Below, in pieces: positions 19,036-26,075 of a stretch of 64,000 bases of DNA (position 1 is the first letter of the stretch; every line of letters starts with the position of its first letter). Source of the DNA: Anaeromassilibacillus senegalensis (lineage in GTDB: Bacteria > Bacillota > Clostridia > Oscillospirales > Acutalibacteraceae); assembly GCF_021531715.1 (NCBI RefSeq), contig NZ_JAFBIT010000003.1:186001-250000 (forward strand), in the 5' to 3' direction. A program made the translations under genes and the position numbers. The notes under the pieces were generated by a model. The model did no database searches. It was not told the DNA's origin and saw only the letters and a list, made by a program, of their open reading frames with translations.

Positions 19036-19941
19036 ATGACAAGCGTACATCAGGCGGGTGTGCGGCGGATTTTGTCGCTTCTGCTCGCATTTATCCTCGT
19101 GTTTTCCGTTTGCGCGATCCCCGCGCTGGCGGATGAAGCGGGCGATTCGGAACCCGCTTCGGCCGATGGTTCCTCCGCCATACCGCAGCCGACCGTGGAT
19201 TTTTACGTCTACGACGAAGCCAATGTGCTCAGCGCGGAGACGAAGAGTACAATTCTCGCAAAAAATGCGGAGTTGAATGAAAAATACGGCGTGCAGATTG
19301 TCGTGATGACTGTGAACCTGCTGCCCGGCAGCGATTTGGAATCGAGAGCGACGTATCTGACCTCTGTAATCCAGTCCTGGAAGGTCGGCGGTGAACAGGG
19401 AAACGGCTTGATTCTGGCACTGTCTATTTCAGACGAAGATTATGTGGCAGTCGCGGGGAACAACTTTAAGCCGGAATTTACCAATGTCGTGCTCAAGAAT
19501 CTTCTGAATGAACAGCTTGAGCCGGATTTCAAAAATAAGGCGTACGATGCAGGCGTTGCCAAGTTCTTTACGGCGGCGGCGCAGCGTGCGGAGACCTACG
19601 CGGCATCGCTGGCAGCGAGCGCGGAGCTTTCCGAGGAGCCGGAAGCATCTGCCGTGCCGGAGAAGACCGAAGATGAGAAAAGCGGCGGGAGCGTATTCCT
19701 TTCTATCCTTAAGTTCCTTGGCACGTTTGTCCTGGTTCTGCTTGCGTTAGCGGTCATTTCCCTGATCGTTATCCAGGTGCATGGACAAATGGTGCGCAAA
19801 AAGAGACGTGAGGCACGGCGCAGGAGAGCACAGCAGCGCGGCGGCGCGGCGTCTGCGCGCCGGACAGAAACCGGATCCGTACGGCGATCGGATTCTGTAA
19901 AAGACAGTGACTACCGCGCGTTCATGGATCGGTATAAATAA
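19036..19941 (+). CDS. TPM-domain (YgcG-type) secreted membrane protein
   Basis: A 301-residue protein with a signal peptide (about 1-32, ends PALADEA), an outer TPM domain (about 52-190: VYDEANVLSA...KYGVQIVVMTVN...GNGLILALS), an acidic linker, a membrane helix (about 226-248) and an arginine-rich cytoplasmic tail. TPM proteins take part in envelope or photosystem maintenance in other groups; the role here is unknown. It stands alone between a strong promoter and a terminator. Confidence 0.87.
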   Translation: MTSVHQAGVRRILSLLLAFILVFSVCAIPALADEAGDSEPASADGSSAIPQPTVDFYVYDEANVLSAETKSTILAKNAELNEKYGVQIVVMTVNLLPGSDLESRATYLTSVIQSWKVGGEQGNGLILALSISDEDYVAVAGNNFKPEFTNVVLKNLLNEQLEPDFKNKAYDAGVAKFFTAAAQRAETYAASLAASAELSEEPEASAVPEKTEDEKSGGSVFLSILKFLGTFVLVLLALAVISLIVIQVHGQMVRKKRREARRRRAQQRGGAASARRTETGSVRRSDSVKDSDYRAFMDRYK

Positions 19942-19952
19942 GACTCCATATA

Positions 19953-19993
19953 AAAAACCGTGGAATCGGCGTATTGCCGGTTCCACGGTTTTT
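19953..19993. terminator. Bidirectional terminator for the TPM gene and the ACP/MBOAT operon
   Basis: An 18-bp stem with one G-U pair (19953-19970 with 19976-19993), flanked by A and T runs so that it works on both strands. Confidence 0.9.
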
Positions 19994-20003
19994 CTGTATG
20001 CGT

Positions 20004-20249
20004 TTACCTCTTTGCGCGCTGCTGAATGATCGACGCCATTTCTCCGACGTTTTTCATCGAGGAGATTTCGCCCATTTTGAATTTCATGCGAAACTCGCGT
20101 TCTACAGCGGAGATCAGCGTGATGTGTTCGAGGCTGTCCCAGTCCTCGATGTCATCGGCTGTGGTTTTCGGCGTGACACGGATGCTGTCGTCGTCGAAAA
20201 CATCCTGAAATACGCGGTTGAGCCTTGTGAAAATTTCTCTTGTATCCAT
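20004..20249 (-). CDS. Acyl carrier protein of the MBOAT/FkbH operon
   Basis: An 81-residue carrier protein. DWDSLEHITL holds Ser39, the 4'-phosphopantetheine site. It is distinct from the housekeeping AcpP at 43.4-43.6 kb and is the last gene of the operon, 46 bp after the FkbH-like gene. In FkbH systems the HAD protein loads a three-carbon glyceryl unit from 1,3-bisphosphoglycerate onto a dedicated ACP, so this ACP is probably the carrier for that unit. ATG 20249 is preferred over an upstream start because AAAGGA lies about ten bases before it. Confidence 0.93.
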   Translation of the reverse strand: MDTREIFTRLNRVFQDVFDDDSIRVTPKTTADDIEDWDSLEHITLISAVEREFRMKFKMGEISSMKNVGEMASIIQQRAKR

Positions 20250-20295
20250 GTTATGCAAATCCTTTCTTCGTTTATTGGTTTCGTTTATATGCATG

Positions 20296-22089
20296 TTAAG
20301 CGTTCGCTTCGTTGCCGGTGACTTCAATCACATGATTTTTCGGCATATAGCCGGAGACAGCCATTTGCCAAACCGTATTGCCGATTTCATCCTCGCTGAT
20401 TTTTTCAAAGCCGAAGGTTCCGAACAATTCGCGCACCATGTTATTCTTCGCGGTGGGATAGTAATACCCCCGGATCGTCTCGATGCCGACCTCGCGGCAG
20501 CGTTCCACAAGACGGTCCAGCATGGCGAGCTCCATATCGCGCTTCAGGACACGGCAGCTCATCAGCCAAAGCTCGATATCAAGTGTACTGCCGTTCTTTT
20601 TGCCGATGACAACGGATACAACGCCGTTGTCGCCGAATTTGTCGATCAACTTGCCGTAAAGGCGGATATACTGATCGCTCTTGAAGGTTTCCTCCATTTC
20701 GGCAGGCGTGTAGCGCTTCGTTGTCACGTTGAACTGGTTGCTCTTGTTGGACAGCTGTGTAATACGTGCCAGATAGACAGGCAGGAAGTCATCGATAACG
20801 GCGTGCATTTCGAGGCTTTTGAGATATTCGCCGTAATCGCCGAAAGACGCCATCTGCGCAGCACGCAGCGCGTTTTTCTTATACATCTCGTTGCGCTTCA
20901 GGTCATCCTCGCTGAAGGATGTGACCTCAAAGAAACCGCTGCGGTCGATCGTCATGATGTAATTTTCCACGCTGTCCATGACGGGGACTGCCGCGCCTTG
21001 GATCTGCGCGCGGACGATTTCGCGCTCGGCGGGATTGTCGTCGGCAAAGACGATCGAATCGGGCAGGATATTCAGCTCGGCGGCAGTTTCCGCAATATTG
21101 CGGTCTTTATTTTCCCAGTTTGCTTTAATAATGATGAAGTCGTCCGGCTTCAGCACGCCTTCAGGATGGTTCAGCCCGGCGATCGCGTTTTCATGGTCAT
21201 TTTTCGAGCAGACCGTGAGCAGGATGCCGAGGGATTTGAGCTGCTTGAGGTAGCTCTGGAATTCGTAGTACGACTGCGAAACGCCGGTCTCCTGACCGAT
21301 CTCAATGCCGTCTACGCCGTCGTCTCCGACAACGCCGCCCCAGAGTGTGTTGTCCAGATCGAGTGCGAGCGCCTTTTTATTTTTGCCGAAGATCGATTTA
21401 ATAATATTTGATACGCTGAATGCAAAGGCGGGGATGGCCTCAAAGCACATCGCGTATTTGTACATATTCCAGAACAGAGGATTGGACCATTCCTTCAGGC
21501 CGTAATCGGCGGAGATATAGTCGAGATCGTTGATATAAAAGCTCTCGTTTTCACGTGCATATCCGTAAAACGCGTCATTCAGGCGGGAGACGAAATTTGT
21601 TCGGCCGTGAATGTCCCATGCGTCTCGATTGCCAAGCAGACGGTAAAACGGCATCTCAAAATTATTCTGGATGATTGGACAGTGGAATTTTTCCCGGATG
21701 CTTGTCCACATGCTCTGGAATTTTTCGAACTCCGCTTTCAGCTTCTGTTCCACCAGGTCGGCGGAATCAGTCATCTCAGGCCAGTTCGTGATGTTCCGGT
21801 TGGAGGTATGGACAAAGACAATATCCGGCTCAAAGGCGAGAAGTGTTTCATTCGGGAACATGGCATCCTGAAAATATTGCGCATATTCCGATTCATAGAA
21901 GACCGGCTCAATGCCGGTGTTCAACAGGAAAAGCTCCAGCGTTTTGACAATGTCGCTTGTCGTTGAACCGCCCAATACGGCGATCTTCTTTTTGATGCGC
22001 ACCGTGCCGTCCGCAAGCAGTGCTTTCCTCAAAGATTTCCGCTTTTTGATGATGTAAGCGGCGTCAAAGGGATATTCAAGTTCAGTCAT
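20296..22089 (-). CDS. FkbH-like HAD-IIIC protein, predicted glyceryl-ACP loading enzyme
   Basis: A 597-residue protein of the HAD-IIIC/FkbH family. Residues about 30-230 form an SGNH-like N-terminal domain (VLGGSTTSD), and about 238-375 form the HAD domain with D244-L-D246-N-T-L-W and VFADDNPAERE. A GNAT-like C-terminal domain follows (about 420-590). FkbH and OzmB proteins take D-1,3-bisphosphoglycerate, remove the phosphates and pass the glyceryl group to an ACP. No polyketide or peptide synthase is nearby; instead it is flanked by an ACP, an MBOAT and an AlgJ-like protein, which points to surface acylation. ATG 22089 has AGAAAGGA upstream. Confidence 0.9.
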   Translation of the reverse strand: MTELEYPFDAAYIIKKRKSLRKALLADGTVRIKKKIAVLGGSTTSDIVKTLELFLLNTGIEPVFYESEYAQYFQDAMFPNETLLAFEPDIVFVHTSNRNITNWPEMTDSADLVEQKLKAEFEKFQSMWTSIREKFHCPIIQNNFEMPFYRLLGNRDAWDIHGRTNFVSRLNDAFYGYARENESFYINDLDYISADYGLKEWSNPLFWNMYKYAMCFEAIPAFAFSVSNIIKSIFGKNKKALALDLDNTLWGGVVGDDGVDGIEIGQETGVSQSYYEFQSYLKQLKSLGILLTVCSKNDHENAIAGLNHPEGVLKPDDFIIIKANWENKDRNIAETAAELNILPDSIVFADDNPAEREIVRAQIQGAAVPVMDSVENYIMTIDRSGFFEVTSFSEDDLKRNEMYKKNALRAAQMASFGDYGEYLKSLEMHAVIDDFLPVYLARITQLSNKSNQFNVTTKRYTPAEMEETFKSDQYIRLYGKLIDKFGDNGVVSVVIGKKNGSTLDIELWLMSCRVLKRDMELAMLDRLVERCREVGIETIRGYYYPTAKNNMVRELFGTFGFEKISEDEIGNTVWQMAVSGYMPKNHVIEVTGNEANA

Positions 22090-22122
22090 ATGCTTTCCTT
22101 TCTGCACCTTTTGCGCGATGAA

Positions 22123-23706
22123 TCAAGCCTGCGGGTCGTCATCATGGACATCCGGATCCGAGGAGGCGGAATTGTCGGATGTCGTATTGTCCGGTGCCGG
22201 GGTGCTGCTGGCGGTATTGCCTGTGGGATGTTCATCCACAATTGTGCTGTCCGCATCCTGGTGAATGAGGTTGGTGATGTTCGAGGCATTGTCGCCGACC
22301 ACGGAATAGGCGGACATCGTAAACAGGACGTCGGTCACACCTGTGGTGCCGATGAAGTTGACAAGATTGCGATGGAATTCGCGCACATCCACGACGTAGA
22401 TCTGCTCGAAGGAACTGGTGTAATACGGGATCTCCGCATTGCCGAAGCTGTCCTTCACAACGAGCAGCTTGCGGCCGTTTTTCACCTCGGTATCGACTTT
22501 GACGACCCAGGAATCGCCGCCCATAAACATGAGATACGAGTTCGCGACATCCACCTCCGCGAAGAGGTCATCGCTGAATTGATAATTGAAAGAGGAATCG
22601 TAGTAATACGCCTGATACTTGGCAGAAGGCACGTAGTACACAAAATCTTCGGGATCGTTCAGCAGGCGGGAATCCTGTGAAAAGCCGTACATCGTGCCGA
22701 CAAAGCCTTCATTATAGCCGCTGGTGTAGGAAGAGATATCCGTGAAGGGAACGTCGGCGGCTTCAGCAAAGGTGCGTGCAGCGTAATAGGCGCCGCGCGG
22801 CTGCCAGTGATGGTCCGTACGACAGTAAATATTCTCCTCGGTGTGCTTGCGCATGACATCCACCACATTGACAGACCGGATGCCGGGGTTCAGTTTTGCA
22901 GCAATTTCGTCAAAGCATTTGCCCTGATCGGCTACATAATCAATTGCATTTTTCGGCGTATAAATTGCGCTTGAGGTCGGCGCAGGCATAGACCAGATGG
23001 TCACGTTTTGGCTGACCAGGCTCTGCAGCTCATTGAGTGCATCAACGTAGTCCGAACCGCTGCCGCCGCCAAAGGGTTCCATGCAGCGCCAATGCCCGTC
23101 CCAATTGACCATGAGCAGATTGTTGACCCATTCAAGCGAGCCATTCTCTTCAGCTGTATAGTCACGCTGATAGGGCTCGTCTGCAGCACTGGCAGCAGGA
23201 AGGGCCATATTGCGGCTTGCAACACCCTCCAGTATATTGCCGGTGGAAGTGGGAACCGGTGTGGCGGAGCTTTCTGTGTTTTCAGCATCTTCGTCATCTC
23301 CTTTTGACGAGACATTTGCGCTGCCGGAGGCAGAGAACAGCTTCATGCCAAAAACATTCTTAATCTCATTGCTGAGATTCTTAAAATTATCGCGGTATGG
23401 GACAGTATCATCATAAAAGGTTGTCACGCCGGAAGTAAACGCGCCGGAAAAATAACTTTCGAGAGAAAAAGAGGGGAATTTTGCCAGCTCGCGCTTTTCA
23501 ATCTGGGATTTCTCGGAACGCGGGAAAACCAGCAGAAATAAGGCTGCGAGCAGAAGAAACAGAGCCATGGCCGTCAGAGATATCATGGAGAGGCGTGTTT
23601 CCAGCAGGGAACGTTTTTCAGCCTTGCGGTCACGCAATGATGTAGCACGTTTTTCATTTGCGGGGATTTCGTTGAGGCTGTCGTCATAAAAGCTTTCGGA
23701 ATTCAT
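22123..23706 (-). CDS. DHHW-family (AlgX/AlgJ-like) membrane-anchored SGNH-type protein
   Basis: A 527-residue protein with a charged cytoplasmic N-terminus, one membrane helix (about 43-65) and a large outer domain. RTDHHWQPRGAYYA places the DHHW motif at 298-301, and LVVKDSFGNAEIPY resembles the Ser-containing block of AlgJ/AlgX and DltD-like proteins, which work with MBOAT proteins to put acyl groups on polysaccharides. A low-complexity Ser/Thr/Pro loop (about 130-165) and an Asp/Ser/Thr-rich tail are likely disordered. It starts 17 bp after the MBOAT gene with AAGGAG. Confidence 0.85.
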   Translation of the reverse strand: MNSESFYDDSLNEIPANEKRATSLRDRKAEKRSLLETRLSMISLTAMALFLLLAALFLLVFPRSEKSQIEKRELAKFPSFSLESYFSGAFTSGVTTFYDDTVPYRDNFKNLSNEIKNVFGMKLFSASGSANVSSKGDDEDAENTESSATPVPTSTGNILEGVASRNMALPAASAADEPYQRDYTAEENGSLEWVNNLLMVNWDGHWRCMEPFGGGSGSDYVDALNELQSLVSQNVTIWSMPAPTSSAIYTPKNAIDYVADQGKCFDEIAAKLNPGIRSVNVVDVMRKHTEENIYCRTDHHWQPRGAYYAARTFAEAADVPFTDISSYTSGYNEGFVGTMYGFSQDSRLLNDPEDFVYYVPSAKYQAYYYDSSFNYQFSDDLFAEVDVANSYLMFMGGDSWVVKVDTEVKNGRKLLVVKDSFGNAEIPYYTSSFEQIYVVDVREFHRNLVNFIGTTGVTDVLFTMSAYSVVGDNASNITNLIHQDADSTIVDEHPTGNTASSTPAPDNTTSDNSASSDPDVHDDDPQA

Positions 23707-23723
23707 ATCGGCTCTCCTTTCCA

Positions 23724-25145
23724 TCAGAATCTCCAGTAGAGGAACACATTGTTGGTTGCATCGACAAGCATGATGCTCAGAACGATCAGAAGACCGATGC
23801 AGATCGTCACGGAGCCGATTCGCCCGACGGCATAGACCGCATCGTTACGGCTTTCCAGAAAATACGACTTGAGCTTTGGCAGTACAGGCAGGCTGGCGAT
23901 AATGGCCGCCGCAATCAGGAACAGGTTGTTGCGGAAAGAGGAAAAGGTCATAGGATCTGTGAACGGCGCACCATTCGCGATCATGCTGATGCCTGAAATA
24001 TTGACGAAGAATTGACCGAGCTGCGAAAGATCTTCGAAATAGAAAATGCCAAAGCCGATGATAATAACCAGCTTGCTGTAAATATGCTTCCACCAGATCG
24101 GCCATTTCTTGATGCGCTTTTTGCCGAGCTTCTGCTCAAAGAAGATGAAGAAACCGAAATACAGGCCCCAGAGGATAAAGTTCCACGCTGCGCCATGCCA
24201 AACACCGGTGCAGAACCAGACAAGGAACAGAGAGAGGTATTTGCGGTTTTTGCCGAAGATCGGCACGTACAGCAGGTAATCGCGGAAGAAGGAGCCGAGC
24301 GAAATGTGCCACCGCTGCCAGAATTCCGCAATGGTTTTGCAGGCGAACGGGTGCGTAAAGTTTTCATCAAAATGAAAACCAAACATGCGGCCGAGGCCGA
24401 TGGCAATATCGGAATAACCGCTGAAGTCAAAATAAACATACAGCGAATAAGCGATAACGGTATACCATGTGCCGAGTACAGACAAACCGGTGATGTCCTT
24501 GCCGAAGAAAGCGTCGACAATGACCCAGAGGTTATTGGCCACAATGACTTTTTTCGCAAGGCCGACGATGACACGCAGCGCGCCTTCACACAGATCGTTC
24601 ATCGTGATGCTGCGGTTGTCAATCTCATCTTCCACAACGCTGTATCGGACAATCGGGCCGGCGATAAGCTGTGGGAACAGGGAAAGATACAAAAGAAATT
24701 TTTTATACTGGTGCTGAACCTTAACGGTCTCCCAGTAGCAGTCGAGCACATAGGAAATGGCCTGGAAGGTGTAAAAACTGATACCGATCGGCAGCGTGAT
24801 CTGCGGCACGGGAATCGAGGCGCCGGAAACAGCATTGATGTTTTCCACGATAAACGCACTGTACTTAAAAATAATCAAAAGCAGAATATCTATGGAAATG
24901 CCCGCTGCAACAGCCAATTTTGCGCTGCTGGTTTCCCGGTATTTTTCGATCATCAGACCGATAAACCAGTTGAAAACGGAACTGAACAGGAGCAAAAGAA
25001 TCCAAAGTGGCTCGCCCCAAGCGTAAAAAATCAGAGAAAAGATAATGAGCACAGTGTTTTTTGTTTCAAGCTTCTTAGCCAACATATAGCAGAGAAGGCA
25101 GATCGGCAGGAAAAAATAAATAAAAAACAGATCGGCAAATACCAT
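23724..25145 (-). CDS. MBOAT-family acyltransferase (DltB/AlgI-like)
   Basis: A 473-residue multi-pass membrane O-acyltransferase. The family motifs EFWQRWHISLGSFFRDYLLYVP (His280) and GVWHGAAWNFILWG (catalytic His317) are present. Such proteins carry an acyl group from a cytoplasmic carrier through the membrane to an outer acceptor. It is the first gene of the four-gene operon MBOAT, DHHW protein, FkbH-like protein, ACP, which supplies all four roles of the Dlt system with FkbH in the place of DltA. ATG at 25145 has AAGGAG upstream. Confidence 0.94.
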   Translation of the reverse strand: MVFADLFFIYFFLPICLLCYMLAKKLETKNTVLIIFSLIFYAWGEPLWILLLLFSSVFNWFIGLMIEKYRETSSAKLAVAAGISIDILLLIIFKYSAFIVENINAVSGASIPVPQITLPIGISFYTFQAISYVLDCYWETVKVQHQYKKFLLYLSLFPQLIAGPIVRYSVVEDEIDNRSITMNDLCEGALRVIVGLAKKVIVANNLWVIVDAFFGKDITGLSVLGTWYTVIAYSLYVYFDFSGYSDIAIGLGRMFGFHFDENFTHPFACKTIAEFWQRWHISLGSFFRDYLLYVPIFGKNRKYLSLFLVWFCTGVWHGAAWNFILWGLYFGFFIFFEQKLGKKRIKKWPIWWKHIYSKLVIIIGFGIFYFEDLSQLGQFFVNISGISMIANGAPFTDPMTFSSFRNNLFLIAAAIIASLPVLPKLKSYFLESRNDAVYAVGRIGSVTICIGLLIVLSIMLVDATNNVFLYWRF

Positions 25146-25220: not shown

Positions 25221-25249
25221 AGTTTAGTATAATCCGCTGAAATAGTCAA
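25221..25249 (-). promoter_or_regulatory. Promoter of the MBOAT operon
   Basis: On the minus strand: TTGACT (25249-25244), 17-bp spacer, TAAACT (25226-25221). Confidence 0.7.
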
Positions 25250-25615: not shown

Positions 25616-25692
25616 GCGCCCGTAGCTCAGCAGGATAGAGCGTTCGCCTCCTAAGCGAAAGGCCGCGCGTTCGAATCGCGCCGGGCGTGCCA
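25616..25692 (+). tRNA. tRNA-Arg (anticodon CCT)
   Basis: A full cloverleaf: acceptor GCGCCCG with CGGGCGT, D arm GCTC/GAGC, anticodon stem TTCGC/GCGAA with loop CTCCTAA, T arm GCGCG-TTCGAAT-CGCGC, and an encoded CCA end. It is an integration hot-spot type of gene; an integrase fragment lies 170 bp downstream. Confidence 0.95.
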
Positions 25693-25860: not shown

Positions 25861-26037
25861 TTATTCGAATAGCTGCTCCAGCTTTTCTGCGGCTGTTTTA
25901 TCGGAGCTCTTTAGGAAGTGGCTGTAGATGTCCGTCGTAGTGCTCGTTCGCGCGTGGCCTGCTCTACCGGCCACTGTGACCAGCGGTACGCCCGCTGCAA
26001 TCTGCATGGTGATGTTGGTATGGCGCAGCGAAAGCAA
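25861..26037 (-). pseudogene. C-terminal remnant of a tyrosine recombinase (phage integrase)
   Basis: About 58 residues that match only the end of the catalytic domain: LRHT with the second Arg, a G-x-A-G-H-A block and IYSHF with the nucleophile Tyr. The N-terminal domains are gone; homology stops where the MFS terminator begins (26038), so a deletion joined the two. The nearby tRNA-Arg is the likely attachment target of the lost element. Confidence 0.8.
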
Positions 26038-26075
26038 AAGGCCGGGCCGTTCCACACAGGGAGCGGCCCGGCCTT
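26038..26075 (-). terminator. Terminator of the MFS transporter gene
   Basis: A perfect 12-bp stem (26038-26049 with 26064-26075); on the minus strand it is followed by TTTTGCTTT. Confidence 0.82.

Follow-up and report, generated by a model that had tools for sequence, protein, structure and literature searches.

A putative carrier-dependent surface acylation operon joining an FkbH protein to an MBOAT-DHHW pair in Anaeromassilibacillus senegalensis

What might an FkbH protein, a member of a family known for loading glyceryl units from 1,3-bisphosphoglycerate onto acyl carrier proteins (ACPs) for polyketides, be doing in an operon whose other products resemble cell-surface acylation machinery? 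The question is raised by a 64,000-nucleotide stretch of Anaeromassilibacillus senegalensis DNA (contig NZ_JAFBIT010000003.1, positions 186,001 to 250,000; hereafter the window), in which a minus-strand operon at 25145-20004 encodes an MBOAT acyltransferase, a DHHW-family protein, FkbH, and an ACP. An initial annotation of this DNA had proposed that the operon copies the logic of the Dlt system, with FkbH in place of DltA. According to our analysis, the four genes belong together as a conserved unit that is free of polyketide genes. We consider it likely that the unit performs carrier-dependent surface acylation and, if it does, our analysis makes glyceryl the fairly probable transferred group. 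The complete interpretation, which we favor with modest confidence, is that the operon is a glycolysis-fed, carrier-dependent system for O-acylation of the cell surface, wherein glyceryl passes via FkbH and the ACP to the MBOAT and then to the DHHW protein. The features concerned are as follows.

23724-25145, minus strand: MBOAT O-acyltransferase, 473 aa (PF03062, 81.3 bits; Pfam cut-off 27)
22123-23706, minus strand: DHHW-family SGNH-type protein, 527 aa (PF14286, 143.5 bits; cut-off 25)
20296-22089, minus strand: FkbH protein, 597 aa (TIGR01686, 264.4 bits, cut-off 146.65; FkbH_N PF21211, 34.7 bits, cut-off 27)
20004-20249, minus strand: dedicated ACP, 81 aa (generic NCBIfam ACP models, all below their cut-offs)
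19952-19994, minus strand: intrinsic terminator hairpin (-29.6 kcal/mol, z -7.84)
25221-25249, minus strand: possible promoter, TTGACT-17-TAAACT (weak)

The open reading frames (ORFs) lie where the initial annotation had put them, and the intergenic gaps of 17, 33, and 46 bp, measured with the chosen ATG starts, agree with it as well. The single terminator that it had proposed was borne out by a strong hairpin, which was equaled by none of 200 shuffled sequences. This hairpin sits between convergent genes and also faces the gene at 19036-19941. The single promoter was not upheld: the upstream match (25249-25221) agrees with the consensus at 9 of 12 positions, and the region holds 7 promoter-like matches versus 6.7 in shuffled sequences.

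The AlphaFold model of FkbH (pLDDT 87.8) comprises SGNH-like N-terminal, HAD-IIIC, and GNAT-like domains. Structural matches were obtained with 3slr over the SGNH-like and HAD domains (Z 37.1), with MDP-1 for the HAD domain (Z 16.4), with GNATs for the C-terminal domain (Z ~16), and with an SGNH-type esterase for the N-terminal domain (Z 14.7). An alignment was built with 48 of 73 full-length FkbH ORFs; here, as in the other alignments and the trees, near-copies and over-long ORFs were mostly left out. Residues D244, D246, S295, K296, K328, D350, D351, and Cys512 are invariant in all 49 rows. Fifteen comparison FkbHs, which represent surface, methoxymalonyl, KAS III-linked, and polyketide-synthase contexts, keep these catalytic residues with one exception, a Lys296-to-Asn change in a domain embedded in a polyketide synthase. 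Judged by its phosphatase-type residues, the HAD active site is predicted to be competent, a property on which the original proposal had depended. The N-terminal domain (residues 31-235, approximately 21999-21385) has an SGNH-esterase-like fold with a GGSTT motif, and its Ser42 is present in 46 of 49 rows.

Cys512 (codon 20556-20554) is located after strand 502-510 and before helix 516-533 of the model. This region probably corresponds to the place where GNATs bind the CoA arm, and therefore the ACP arm could reach Cys512. In known FkbHs, a cysteine carries the acyl group. Cys294, beside HAD motif II, was also considered as the acyl-accepting residue, and was dropped because it is a cysteine in just 16 of 49 rows, against all 49 for Cys512. 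Another possibility is that loading starts from CoA, with the GNAT-like domain placing acetyl or some other group on the ACP and the HAD domain being a bystander. GNAT-type loading of ACPs is known in polyketide synthases, and the GNAT fold of the C-terminal domain is clear. However, the invariance of the HAD residues indicates that the HAD domain is under selection, and the loop that follows GNAT strand four, which is the usual place for CoA, contains SCRVLKR, including the invariant Cys512 (provided that this loop is assigned correctly). Thus, we regard GNAT-type loading as highly improbable.

The small partner of FkbH carries the expected attachment site for phosphopantetheine, Ser39 of a DSL motif (codon 20135-20133). 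We collected the best 80 of 589 loci from a scan of named genomes for FkbH, a set biased toward near relatives, and this position is a serine in all 73 of those loci that have an ACP match.

On the membrane side, the MBOAT has a WHG motif that aligns with that of DltB and contains His317 (codon 24197-24195); DltB is also the best solved-structure match of its model (Foldseek). Its C-terminus, FLYWRF, fits the acyl-shuttle motif FXYXXF, whose tyrosine (Tyr470 in the window protein, codon 23738-23736) is acylated in PatA (PMC12148441). H317, F468, Y470, and F473 are present in all 25 aligned rows, which comprise the window protein and 24 relatives from a list of 60 ORFs. More broadly, the pattern F.Y..[FYLWM] occurs near the C-terminus of 60 of the 68 MBOAT ORFs from the 80 loci, and the eight that deviate are cut or split (five), have a degenerate end (two), or are ambiguous (one). 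The DHHW protein, which the ALGX model also matched, begins with a hydrophobic segment judged by eye to be a membrane anchor. It matches 4nzk (E 2.7e-74) and PatB1 (5v8d, E 1.3e-12). H300, S420, and R442 of its catalytic set are present in 21 of 21 aligned rows and D298 in 20 (alignment from 20 of 28 DHHW ORFs), and the spacing of 22 between Ser420 and Arg442 is the same as that between Ser337 and Arg359 of PatB1.

This arrangement is conserved among relatives. MBOAT, DHHW, and FkbH genes occur in the window order at 24 of the 80 loci (window-type loci), 23 of which have an ACP match; the remaining one stops inside FkbH. An ACP follows FkbH in 70 of the 76 loci with at least 1 kb of flank, and in two of the six exceptions (L055 and L110) the ACP match overlaps the end of FkbH. 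Where at least 8 kb is available on both sides, the MBOAT gene shares the strand of FkbH in 34 of 45 loci. Among named relatives, those closest to the window are uncultured Clostridia and Ruminococcus, whose isolate names suggest deer, rumen, and rabbit guts. Two further observations on relatives stand apart: at six loci (L053, L062, L066, L083, L125, and L146) a tandem pair of DHHW genes precedes FkbH and the stretch gave no MBOAT match, and at L129 an FkbH 61% identical to that of the window has no ACP, MBOAT, or DHHW match nearby.

Samples from the host order (147 genomes), family (120), and class (291) that were picked neither by neighboring genes nor by nearness were also scanned, and the distribution across the family and class is patchy. 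FkbH scores above the family cut-off in 23 of the 147 order genomes, with 28 matches, and the surroundings of all 27 matches outside the window were scanned by tblastn. Fifteen of the 28, the window included, have an ACP and an MBOAT on the same strand. The others comprise two with an ACP and DHHW but without an MBOAT in the stretch, one with DHHW that is cut by a contig end, two on short contigs (5.3 and 7.1 kb) that have an ACP but lack an MBOAT, one with an MBOAT ~2.5 kb away and no ACP, and seven with none of these genes. FkbH is present above the cut-off in 14 of 120 family genomes (one per genus), and eight of these, including the host, show an ACP beside FkbH within 1.5-kb flanks. At the class level, FkbH was found in 35 of 291 genomes (47 matches), and 29 loci were scanned with the same flanks. 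Eleven of them show a match of at least 54% to the window FkbH across ~1.7 kb; in view at these are an ACP at 10, an MBOAT at five, DHHW at three, and a MaoC-SDR pair at one, and none has methoxymalonyl genes. The other 18 include 10 with an ACP and three with a methoxymalonyl-type dehydrogenase.

A polyketide setting for this unit is disfavored. In the host genome, ketoacyl synthases are represented by a single match in a 412-aa open frame ~167 kb from the operon, and when this ketosynthase was used as a tblastn query, none of the 27 order stretches was matched. Among the 80 loci, the only ketosynthase match is at L064, on the opposite strand ~5.8 kb away. The statement of the initial annotation that polyketide genes are absent here is upheld, and the conservation in related genomes on which its proposal depended is seen. 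It could also be argued that the four genes are chance neighbors or a decaying operon, given the patchy distribution in the family and the tRNA gene and possible recombinase remnant upstream. Set against this are the tight spacing, the full reading frames, the kept catalytic residues, and the 24 loci of conserved order, and we give this explanation almost no credence.

Taken together with the chemistry of the family, these features suggest the following route. FkbH would bind 1,3-bisphosphoglycerate, and its HAD domain would take off the 3-phosphate. The acyl group would then move, probably via Cys512 of the GNAT-like domain, to the phosphopantetheine on Ser39, giving glyceryl-S-ACP. Using His317, the MBOAT would take glyceryl from the ACP in the cytoplasm and place it on its own outward-facing Tyr470, by the mechanism that others have shown for PatA. 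Finally, the membrane-anchored DHHW protein would accept glyceryl on Ser420 and attach it by an ester bond to a hydroxyl on a glycopolymer of the cell surface, which may be teichoic-acid-like. The earlier proposal that glyceryl is passed through the MBOAT to a wall polymer is partly supported, as regards the conserved unit and the catalytic residues of FkbH, the MBOAT, and the DHHW protein, while the identities of the group and of its acceptor stay predictions. With respect to the acceptor, four of the 24 window-type loci have TagF-like glycerophosphotransferase genes that share the strand of the operon and lie 160-390 bp upstream of it, which suggests a teichoic-acid-like polymer; we consider this assignment somewhat less likely than not. 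Two TagF-like genes are also present elsewhere in the host genome. Glyceryl esters of gellan gum may be a precedent for such a decoration.

One alternative keeps the same machine and changes its cargo: FkbH and the ACP could make an activated hydroxy acid of another kind (phosphoglyceryl, lactyl, or glycolyl, or a group made by tailoring) that the MBOAT and DHHW proteins then move. The fetched stretches of the 80 loci contain MaoC genes in 19, SDR genes in 13, and transketolase halves in 12, often located in looser relatives between FkbH/ACP and the MBOAT, and their products could alter the loaded glyceryl or provide a different group. In natural-product pathways, glycolyl groups are known to be loaded in a transketolase-type manner. 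However, the 24 window-type loci, whose flanks are uneven in length, gave no match for MaoC or transketolase, and their lone SDR match (L064) lies ~5 kb from the operon. Because of this absence, untailored glyceryl is favored here. The full retention of the HAD phosphatase residues is likewise consistent with phosphate removal. We consider a different cargo in the window system rather unlikely. As a separate observation, five loci (L045, L063, L069, L091, and L109) have a split transketolase pair directly after FkbH. At some of these, the MBOAT is also preceded by MaoC or SDR genes. These arrangements hint that different acyl groups are loaded there.

How does this system relate to those already characterized? 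The overall logic of Dlt, the system for teichoic acid D-alanylation, is present, including a carrier-loading enzyme, a small phosphopantetheine carrier encoded in the operon (DSL Ser39), an MBOAT, and an extracellular SGNH-type partner. Membership in the Dlt family, as implied by the original comparison, does not hold. The operon has no match to the D-alanine-carrier ligase DltA (TIGR01734), the best in the host genome being 120.9 bits against a cut-off of 559.85, and an acyl phosphate instead of ATP would supply the energy in place of adenylation by DltA. The MBOAT scores 150.2 bits against the DltB cut-off of 375 (TIGR04091), the DltC model is absent from the matches of the ACP, and no DltD model was listed at E 0.1 for the DHHW protein, which takes the position held by DltD in Dlt. 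In addition, the shuttle peptide is on the C-terminus of the MBOAT itself, whereas Dlt uses the microprotein DltX; the 17-46 bp gaps hold no gene for DltX, short ORFs elsewhere not having been searched.

Closer likenesses are seen in CcsH/CcsI and in PatA1/PatB1, which O-acetylates the secondary cell wall polysaccharide of the Bacillus cereus group. These pair an MBOAT ending in FXYXXF with a DHHW partner (PMC12148441, PMC9487903, PMC7710045). The likeness to PatA1 rests on its published description, and that to PatB1 includes the Ser-Arg spacing noted above. The difference is that those systems are described as carrier-less and fed by acyl-CoA, whereas the window operon holds FkbH and an ACP. 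The FkbH proteins that load glyceryl in polyketide, tetronate, and methoxymalonyl-ACP biosynthesis, such as OzmB and Mad7/Mad14, share the TIGR01686 domain, the catalytic residues, and a stand-alone ACP (PMC7489565). They differ in that the window operon lacks a ketosynthase, a FabH-like enzyme, and methoxymalonyl dehydrogenases, and its FkbH stands apart from them in the tree. On the basis of these comparisons, a more apt description of the system is an MBOAT-DHHW pair resembling PatA1/PatB1, to which an FkbH-ACP loading front-end has been added. Among the papers listed in searches of the open-licence PubMed Central literature, none was seen to describe a system of this make-up, in line with the initial annotation.

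The trees, built from 40 FkbH and 45 MBOAT hand-picked rows, bear on the history of this combination. A branch with 97/96 support separates 29 FkbH rows, including those from Sinorhizobium meliloti, a Rhodobacteraceae strain, and Tistrella, from ten rows that come from polyketide, KAS III-linked, or methoxymalonyl settings and from that of Paludibaculum, which has a very long branch outside the surface group. An MBOAT is in view for 27 of the 29 (the others are L053 and G036). In the MBOAT tree, the window type forms one clade (100/100). The host genome encodes three MBOATs and one FkbH, and its two other MBOATs each adjoin a DHHW match without an FkbH or ACP match. These two adjoin the window clade among FkbH-linked MBOATs (forks 90/87 and 83/26). 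Three other rows labeled as not FkbH-linked were left uncounted, as their loci hold FkbH some kilobases away. Thus, a single MBOAT lineage for all FkbH-linked systems is not supported, and the tree is silent on gains versus losses. A side observation is that, a few kilobases from another host MBOAT-DHHW pair (L123:13176-15569, host contig C2), helix-turn-helix, cupin, and AMP-binding ligase regions are combined in one protein.

The FkbH-free pairs indicate that a carrier is not general for MBOAT-DHHW pairs in this genome. They also lend some weight to the idea that the window pair O-acetylates from acetyl-CoA in the manner of PatA1/PatB1, with FkbH and the ACP belonging to a separate, co-transcribed small-molecule pathway. 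Against this idea, both Bacillota and Pseudomonadota show FkbH and an ACP recurring beside an MBOAT whose partner differs in kind, being either DHHW or another SGNH-like protein, and the 27 order stretches lack a ketosynthase match. We therefore judge a separate pathway improbable. The SGNH nature of the other partners is based on a GSS-like motif seen by eye and a single GDSL match under the cut-off, Pfam having named few of the eight that were scanned. In S. meliloti, for example, the operon encodes, in this order, an MBOAT, a protein in which an SGNH-like motif was seen by eye, an ACP, and FkbH, and lies ~7 kb from capsule genes. A VOC (Glyoxalase_4) protein is encoded beside the FkbH-MBOAT operons of S. 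meliloti and the Rhodobacteraceae strain (L134:7564-8031 and L117:11909-12337), and our guess is that it acts as an epimerase of the carrier-bound group. This VOC query matched none of the 80 loci, a result that is by itself uninformative about the window type.

The MBOAT tree and the two kinds of partner protein suggest repeated gain or loss of FkbH and the ACP next to MBOAT-SGNH pairs. Extending this, the distinct branch of FkbH proteins, together with their own ACPs, could be an exchangeable front-end that in Bacillota and Pseudomonadota has been combined with differing kinds of MBOAT-SGNH export pair, such that hydroxy acids from a glycolytic acyl phosphate decorate surface polymers, as glyceryl in the minimal form and tailored where MaoC, SDR, or transketolase is added. 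We offer this generalization tentatively, as somewhat less likely than not.

Several observations weigh against the favored interpretation of the window operon as a glyceryl-transferring system. Glyceryl is predicted from distant FkbHs (~26-31% identity), and the MaoC, SDR, and transketolase genes of many relatives mean that the group there may not be plain glyceryl. The ACP falls below the Pfam cut-off (PP-binding, 17.8 versus 20.8 bits). Eight of the 28 order FkbH matches have no ACP match on uncut stretches, and these ACP-less matches include one that is 61% identical to the window FkbH (G042). None of the 18 class loci with an FkbH unlike that of the window has an MBOAT within 1.5 kb. Evidence for the acceptor is limited to the four loci with upstream TagF-like genes. 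Apart from Dlt, the MBOAT-SGNH pairs known so far are described as running on acyl-CoA with no carrier protein (PMC12148441), and no assay of any member of the present group was found in open-licence PubMed Central articles.

If glyceryl transfer by this operon is correct, it would constitute a second carrier-dependent MBOAT-SGNH branch besides Dlt, loaded from a glycolytic intermediate without adenylation. It would also widen the known chemistry of bacterial surfaces and provide a role for FkbH genes in genomes without polyketide synthases. With a front-end of this kind, wall modification would track glycolytic flux rather than ATP-driven adenylation. Cultured species that carry relatives, including S. 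meliloti and Eisenbergiella tayi, make the system testable.

Just upstream of the operon is a tRNA-Arg gene (CCT anticodon) at 25616-25692. Beyond it, a 64-aa ORF at 25861-26055 resembles, by eye, the end of a tyrosine recombinase, and a Pfam search of this ORF gave zero matches. Together, the tRNA gene and the recombinase-like ORF possibly mark an old island border.

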